Assembly: GCF_004117075.1 (NCBI RefSeq)
Contig: NZ_CP026721.1
Coordinates: 620,001 to 684,000 of the forward strand
Source of the DNA: Fervidobacterium changbaicum
GTDB lineage: Bacteria; Thermotogota; Thermotogae; Thermotogales; Fervidobacteriaceae
Direction of reading: 5' to 3'
Length of the DNA: 64,000 nt
Shown here: positions 26,520 through 27,803 of the stretch, piece by piece
Numbering within the stretch: position 1 is the first letter of the stretch
How the letters are laid out: every line of letters begins with the position of its first letter
Position numbers and translations under genes: made by a program
The notes under the pieces: generated by a model
Databases searched by the model: none
Told to the model about the DNA's origin: nothing
The model's input: only the letters and a program-made list of their open reading frames with translations

Positions 26520-26645
26520 AATTTATCCTCCTTTTTCGACATTTACTCACATTAAGTTTCCTAAATCTAAATTGAACTTTTACGATACACATTGGCAAAG
26601 AAGAAACTCATATTTTAATAGAAATCTTTTCTCTTTTCTGATATA

Positions 26646-26651
26646 ATTATA
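26646..26651 (-). promoter_or_regulatory. Candidate -10 box for rpe and downstream genes
   Basis: Minus-strand TATAAT (context GTGTATAATTATATC), about 127 nt upstream of rpe. The -35 (TTTGTA, about 17 nt upstream) is weak. A plus-strand TATAAT overlaps the same palindromic A/T stretch at 26642-26647. Confidence 0.4.
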
Positions 26652-26684
26652 CACGTGGAAACTAAAAATACAAATATGCTGCGA

Positions 26685-26810
26685 GGTCAACCACCCACCA
26701 CTTAAGTGGCGGGTTTGAGAAAGTCTTGGTTGACCAGCCTGAGCAAAGGCCAACGGTTGGCAATTAAGATAAGAACAAGCTATTCTATGTTTCACACGAC
26801 TGAAGTCGCA
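26685..26810 (-). ncRNA. Orphan omega-RNA-like element / IS200-IS605 right-end remnant
   Basis: A structured stretch between rpe and phoH. Read on the minus strand it has, in order: a hairpin CGACT-TC-AGTCG (26808-26797), a hairpin GCCAA-CCG-TTGGC (26761-26749), and an outer 8-bp stem GGTCAACC (26735-26728) with GGTTGACC (26692-26685). That stem encloses a hairpin ACCCGCCACTT / AAGTGGTGGGT (26714-26693). The inner stem is fully paired (one G-U) only on the minus strand; the plus strand would have an A-C mismatch, so the RNA is probably minus-strand. This layout resembles the 3' scaffold RNA of TnpB elements, but no tnpB remains. Alternatives: a REP-like palindrome or a lineage-specific RNA. 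Confidence 0.55.
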
Positions 26811-26837
26811 TACCTCTAAATTGAGGAAGGTGAAGAT

Positions 26838-27803
26838 GTGGCGGTAAGGAGAATCGTTGTACCGGACGATGTTGCGATGATAGAAGTACTGGGACAGTAC
26901 GATAATAAGGCAAGGTACTTAAGGAGGCGATACAACGTAGAGATTTCGGTCGTGGATAACGAGATCAGGGTAAAGGGAGAAGATGAAAGGTCACTTGATA
27001 TTGTGGAAAAGGTCTTGAAGGAAGTTATAAATATAACGCGTGATGGTCATCTGCTTGACTGGACGGAGTTCGAATACATTGTAGAAGAGAATGAAAAGAT
27101 CGAAAATCCAAGGGAAGTCTACAAAAAATCTGTCGGAAAGGTAAAAGCCAAGACGGAAGGTCAGAAGAAATATCTGGAAGCCATAGAAAAGAACGATATA
27201 GTCTTTGCAATTGGACCGGCTGGAACTGGAAAGACTTATCTTGCATCAGCTGTCGCTGTAGATTATCTAAAATCAGGTAGAGTGCAGAGAATCGTGCTCA
27301 CAAGACCGGCAGTTGAGGCTGGTGAAAAGCTCGGGTTTTTACCCGGAGATTTGACAGAAAAAGTAGACCCTTACCTGAGACCTTTGTACGATGCGCTAAT
27401 AGACATGTTGGGAATAGAAAAGTTCATCTCTCTACGCGAGAAAAACGTTATCGAGATCGCACCACTTGCGTATATGCGAGGTCGAACGCTTAACAACGCT
27501 TTCATTATATTAGACGAAGCACAAAATACGACATATGAACAAATGAAGATGTTCTTAACGCGTATGGGTTTTGGTTCAAAGGTTATAGTTACCGGTGACA
27601 TTACTCAGATAGACATTGAGGAAAGGTCAGGATTAGTTGTAGCACAAGAGATACTCAAGGATATAGATGGTATCGCCTTTGTTTACCTAACCGATGCGGA
27701 TGTTGTGAGACATCCCCTTGTTAAGAAAATTATAAGGGCATACGATAGTTTCGAGAGAATGGAAAAACAAGAAAAGCAAGAAAAACAAAGAAGGAATCAT
27801 TAA
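26838..27803 (+). CDS. phoH: PhoH-family ATPase
   Basis: Cytoplasmic P-loop protein of the PhoH (PhoL/YbeZ) family, 321 residues, linked to rRNA processing and RNA metabolism. The N-terminal part has a KH-like region (VEISVVDNEIRVKGEDERSL). The PhoH domain has Walker A IGPAGTGKTYLASAVAV, RPAVEAGEKLGFLPGDLTEK, and Walker B NAFIILDEAQNTTYEQMKMF plus VTGDITQIDI. The start is GTG 26838, with GGAAGGTGA upstream; ATG at 26836 is out of frame. It heads phoH-pgpH-ybeY, an order common in bacteria and consistent with a joint role with YbeY. Confidence 0.95.
   Translation: MAVRRIVVPDDVAMIEVLGQYDNKARYLRRRYNVEISVVDNEIRVKGEDERSLDIVEKVLKEVINITRDGHLLDWTEFEYIVEENEKIENPREVYKKSVGKVKAKTEGQKKYLEAIEKNDIVFAIGPAGTGKTYLASAVAVDYLKSGRVQRIVLTRPAVEAGEKLGFLPGDLTEKVDPYLRPLYDALIDMLGIEKFISLREKNVIEIAPLAYMRGRTLNNAFIILDEAQNTTYEQMKMFLTRMGFGSKVIVTGDITQIDIEERSGLVVAQEILKDIDGIAFVYLTDADVVRHPLVKKIIRAYDSFERMEKQEKQEKQRRNH

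Follow-up and report, generated by a model that had tools for sequence, protein, structure and literature searches.

The 64,000-nucleotide stretch of the Fervidobacterium changbaicum genome analysed here, hereafter the window, carries a plus-strand phoH coding sequence (26838-27803; an ORF of 321 amino acids, 88-97% identical in sister genomes, with named Fervidobacterium relatives at 89% identity), preceded by a promoter-like site (TATAAT; 26619-26647, plus strand) that is a consensus match only, the region of its second hexamer being conserved in sister genomes and lying upstream of the insertion described below. Between the two is a 144 bp element (26686-26829, plus strand; uncertain by one base, because there is a G at either end), interpreted as a whole but truncated IscB (ISC/HEARO) element on the grounds that both its halves are homologous to full elements and that the orthologous site in sister genomes is empty. 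The 5' end (26686-26745, plus strand) corresponds to the guide-adaptor part of the HEARO, or omega-RNA, and comprises an outer stem GTCAACCA/TGGTTGAC and inner hairpins. It is followed by an approximate internal deletion site (26746-26748, plus strand), placed at the break between the halves when aligned with the copies L054, L055 and L063, and by a 3' end (26749-26829, plus strand) made up of decayed last iscB codons, an end hairpin CGACTGAAGTCG and the terminus, recognised through homology to iscB 3' ends. The left flank (26665-26685, plus strand), from which the omega-RNA would take its 5' guide, has the same bases, up to substitutions, as those before the junction in sister genomes, and directly 3' of the element is the tetranucleotide GTGA (26830-26833, plus strand), both an apparent target-adjacent motif and part of the phoH Shine-Dalgarno sequence. 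A promoter-like match inside the element (TTGGCA-18-TATTCT; 26757-26786, plus strand) was discarded, such matches being about as frequent in shuffled sequences.

Both strands of 26685-26810 fold more stably than shuffled sequences (minus strand, z = -3.44; plus strand, z = -3.37), with no shuffle equally stable, as is expected of the palindromes at transposon ends. An earlier note on this DNA had described an 8 bp stem enclosing an 11 bp hairpin on the minus strand. The nested arrangement is indeed present, as an outer stem GGTCAACC/GGTTGACC around an inner hairpin CCCGCCACTTAAGTGGTGGG, but the latter consists of nine pairs and a TTAA loop, and reaches 11 pairs only when the self-complementary loop is counted. 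The note had also favoured the minus strand because one position forms a G-U pair there and an A-C mismatch on the plus strand. This is true of the window, but in 24 related copies the position is occupied by A.C (11), A.G (5), C.A (4), or otherwise A.A, G.G and, once, T-G, while the pairs adjoining it vary on both sides (C-G, T-A or G-C); it is therefore an unpaired internal mismatch across the family, and cannot decide the strand. That the structure is more than a chance occurrence follows from its match to a known RNA family and from the 13 other matching sites in the genome.

These sites were found in a DNA search of the organism's own 2.27 Mb genome with the stretch (E values 5e-8 to 3e-18); most match the half 26684-26745 alone and two match the half 26749-26834 alone. 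Twice, both halves occur on one strand with about 1.5 kb between them (1720031/1721665 and 2074586/2076205), as the ends of a single element. The long ORF of the larger copies encodes IscB in all three proteins tested (NCBIfam NF040563; E values 8e-128, 5e-106 and 1e-105), with RRXRR and HNH domains (Pfam), and a search with PF14239 showed the long frame to be uninterrupted in six copies and broken in two. Sorting the copies by their 3' ends distinguishes group A, consisting of L054, L055 and L063 with iscB and L057, L064 and the window element in deleted form, from group B, consisting of L058-L062 with iscB and the deleted L056. Deletion derivatives other than the window element are found in the same genome (L056, L057 and L064), as truncated copies in a sister genome (G003), and in another (G007) as an element, L092, that has a complete HEARO but lacks iscB.

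In alignment, positions 26686-26745 (or from 26685) represent the first ~60 nt (or ~61) of a full group A element, the 5' half being 79-90% identical to five group A copies, and the last ~80 nt are 78-80% identical to the iscB 3' ends of L054, L055 and L063, with the reading frame broken. Both halves are thus ends common to iscB-bearing elements, with ~1.5 kb missing between them relative to the full elements of 1.6 kb; the window element contains neither an iscB gene nor a complete omega-RNA. MITE-like or palindrome-associated IS200/IS605 derivatives are similar in being geneless and very short, with two palindromic ends. However, no second copy joining both halves in this short form was found in the genome itself, and a first DNA search of 40 relatives gave only chance-level matches outside it; a MITE family was therefore rejected, and the element is regarded as a lone deletion derivative rather than a member of a spreading family.

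The window matches the HEARO family (RF02033) on the plus strand only, starting at 26686, and scores 33.3 bits against a gathering threshold of 83, with E values of 1.9e-5 for the sub-window and 3.3e-5 for the whole genome, where it is one of 12 HEARO hits. This match, to a HEARO omega-RNA at the 5' end in the iscB sense, is partial: approximately the first 57 of 211 model positions are aligned and the middle is missing, which explains why an Rfam search at the gathering score found no match in the window. All eight larger copies in the genome have full-model matches, of 109-165 bits, upstream of iscB. The earlier note had recognised the omega-RNA-like end of an IS200/IS605-superfamily element lacking its nuclease gene, and this is upheld by the HEARO match and by homology to the ends of iscB elements. 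The minus-strand RNA it envisaged is contradicted by the plus-only match, which places the omega-RNA in the phoH direction and makes the guide the plus-strand flank ending at 26685. The coordinates proposed for this guide (26665-26684, or 26685) consequently stand, with the polarity reversed such that it would be at the 5' rather than the 3' end of the RNA.

The same note had read the structure as belonging to a TnpB element: its right end, encoding an omega-RNA on the minus strand whose 3' guide would run from 26684 to 26665. The window element shares its transposon superfamily and palindromic ends with the IS200/IS605 TnpB elements; furthermore, the genome contains seven TnpB-family Zn-ribbon hits, with the one intact Y1 transposase gene beside a tnpB, and the minus strand folds as well as the plus. 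By contrast, in TnpB systems the omega-RNA shares sequence with the tail of tnpB and carries a 3' guide, unlike the window element, which derives from iscB and would take its guide from the 5' side. At none of the 13 matching places was there a tnpB hit; these places carry iscB or are deleted forms. As the matching larger copies encode IscB (NF040563) together with a full HEARO, and the G-U argument fails across relatives, tnpB was rejected as the lost nuclease and a TnpB origin is considered vanishingly improbable.

The insertion event itself can be reconstructed by comparison with sister genomes. In the two closest, the sequence upstream of phoH (...TTTGCGAGGTGAAG...) is free of the element, which is absent from phoH in all seven sister genomes examined, these representing sister species rather than the same species. 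Joining the left flank (...GCTGCGAG) to the right flank (GTGAAG) rebuilds the empty site, ...GCGAG|GTGAAG..., and hence there is no target duplication. Similarly, when the flanks of two further group A insertions are joined, the closest sister genomes align without gaps at the junctions (...TTCAAAGGGGTGAA... and ...AAGAAAGAAGGTGAAAG..., both GTGA-ending). Insertion next to ATGA or GTGA is said to have been noted already in Weinberg's 2009 description of the HEARO family. In this genome, the motif directly 3' of the element is GTGA in all six group A copies and ATGA in all six group B copies. These junctions agree with NTGA, which PMC9581776 gives as the target-adjacent motif of DtIsrB, a related nickase, and the window element likewise combines insertion without target duplication with an NTGA motif on its 3' side. 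The outcome that the earlier note had named as refuting its reading, a structure confined to phoH loci and never near tnpB or one matching no IS605 right end, did not emerge: the structure is missing from phoH in the seven sister genomes and recurs at iscB elements. At phoH, the element is inserted in the direction of the gene, and parts a conserved promoter-like box (TATAATTATA) from the ribosome site and start codon.

The other copies in the genome (L054-L064) also lie in the direction of their host genes, either at the Shine-Dalgarno sequence (group A, GTGA) or at the start codon (group B, ATGA), and the end of iscB falls immediately ahead of the host gene or slightly within it, such that translation of the latter may be coupled to that of iscB. 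The 3' ends of three group B copies (L058, L060 and L062) consist of GGAGG, then a GGGCTAC...GTAGCCC hairpin, then the host ATG; with the hairpin looped out, GGAGG would be at a normal ribosome-site distance, and the end of the element may hence supply a Shine-Dalgarno sequence to the gene it has displaced. The insertion of L061 (G000:C1:1399200-1401400) apparently splits a single reading frame, the parts of which join in frame across the empty junction, with the right part starting with the ATG of the target motif. Hits to Y1 transposases (G000:C1; 2159697-2160056, 516391-516729 and 2060770-2060874) are not near any iscB copy, and the IscB elements would thus need to be moved in trans.

These comparisons lead us to propose, with a probability of about 0.88, that a group A IscB-type transposon of the IS200/IS605 superfamily inserted at the phoH ribosome-binding site and was then reduced to its two ends. 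As judged from the alignments, both ends are homologous to those of iscB elements, and iscB and most of the omega-RNA have been lost. The transposon would have entered this lineage between ...ATGCTGCGAG and GTGAAG, in the phoH direction, with ~1.5 kb subsequently being lost from its middle to leave the two ends, although the internal deletion may instead have preceded the insertion, the two orders being indistinguishable here. The conserved promoter upstream would then drive transcription of the remnant within the phoH leader, and translation of phoH would continue after the insertion, since GTGA, the target, forms part of its Shine-Dalgarno sequence. A Y1 transposase acting in trans might still mobilise the two ends. 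What is left of the element is most likely inert and transcribed through within the leader of phoH.

A different possibility is that the element is a working non-autonomous omega-RNA, which would be transcribed from the plus strand with a guide ending at 26685, load into an IscB encoded elsewhere in the genome and cleave the empty phoH site, thereby keeping or restoring the insertion. The genome has six unbroken iscB genes, the empty phoH site consists of the guide sequence followed by GTGA, a sister genome harbours L092, in which a complete HEARO is not accompanied by iscB, and, according to PMC9581776, there are standalone omega-RNAs that function with IscB. Against this, only about 57 of the 211 HEARO positions are left, the score of 33 is well short of 83, and no second copy of the deleted form occurs in the genome. 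For IsrB, nicking is abolished by mutations that disrupt the omega-RNA pseudoknots but tolerates the loss of part of the guide-adaptor region (SL1), the DNA for which is important in transposition (PMC9581776). Judged by this related system, the window element retains the guide-adaptor region, which transposition needs, and has lost the remainder, which the nuclease needs, making a guide function unlikely even though the genome encodes IscB; with most of the scaffold missing, including the pseudoknot partners, the remaining RNA would be unable to act as an IscB guide. We consequently regard a working omega-RNA as highly improbable. The earlier note's suggestion of a scar or non-autonomous element fits these data, but not that of a present trans-acting guide RNA, given that most of the omega-RNA is deleted. 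The protospacer search it had proposed, run with 26665-26685 against the genome, returned the flank itself as the sole perfect match; seven further sites differ at two positions, and none is followed by NTGA at the right place.

It has also to be considered whether the remnant was co-opted, being kept because its hairpins regulate the translation of phoH or the stability of its mRNA. It lies within the presumed phoH leader, between the promoter-like box and the ribosome site, and folds stably. However, transposon ends would be expected to do so anyway, the 3' half has decayed, and the absence of the element from phoH in the seven sister genomes indicates that it is not a conserved control element; such a role thus seems doubtful in the extreme. 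There is an equally slim chance that the shortened omega-RNA 5' end, co-transcribed with phoH, is retained as a regulatory leader, a decoy or a mini guide RNA binding IscB in trans.

Among known systems, the inert remnant favoured here has the same two ends as the IscB transposons (ISC elements; HEARO RF02033, NF040563), with the omega-RNA at the 5' end, a guide drawn from the 5' flank and RTGA at the 3' junction, and differs from them in the deletion of iscB and most of the omega-RNA. It resembles standalone iscB-free omega-RNAs in having no nuclease gene, but these keep a complete omega-RNA scaffold, which the window element does not. L092 (G007:C2:28884-29099, plus ~180 bp beyond) is of the latter type, with a complete HEARO (155 bits), no iscB and an end at the ATGA of a host ORF, and is the kind of standalone omega-RNA the earlier note had in mind. 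No paper naming IscB and Fervidobacterium together was found in the literature searched. The window element is an ordinary leftover of the known IscB family, not a new kind of guide RNA. Its interest lies in showing how comparisons within the genome and with sister genomes can assign an orphan omega-RNA-like structure to a nuclease family and a strand, and recover the event by which it was inserted. It is also a clean example of an IscB element whose insertion falls precisely on a ribosome-binding site, the unoccupied target, consisting of the guide sequence and GTGA, still being visible in relatives.
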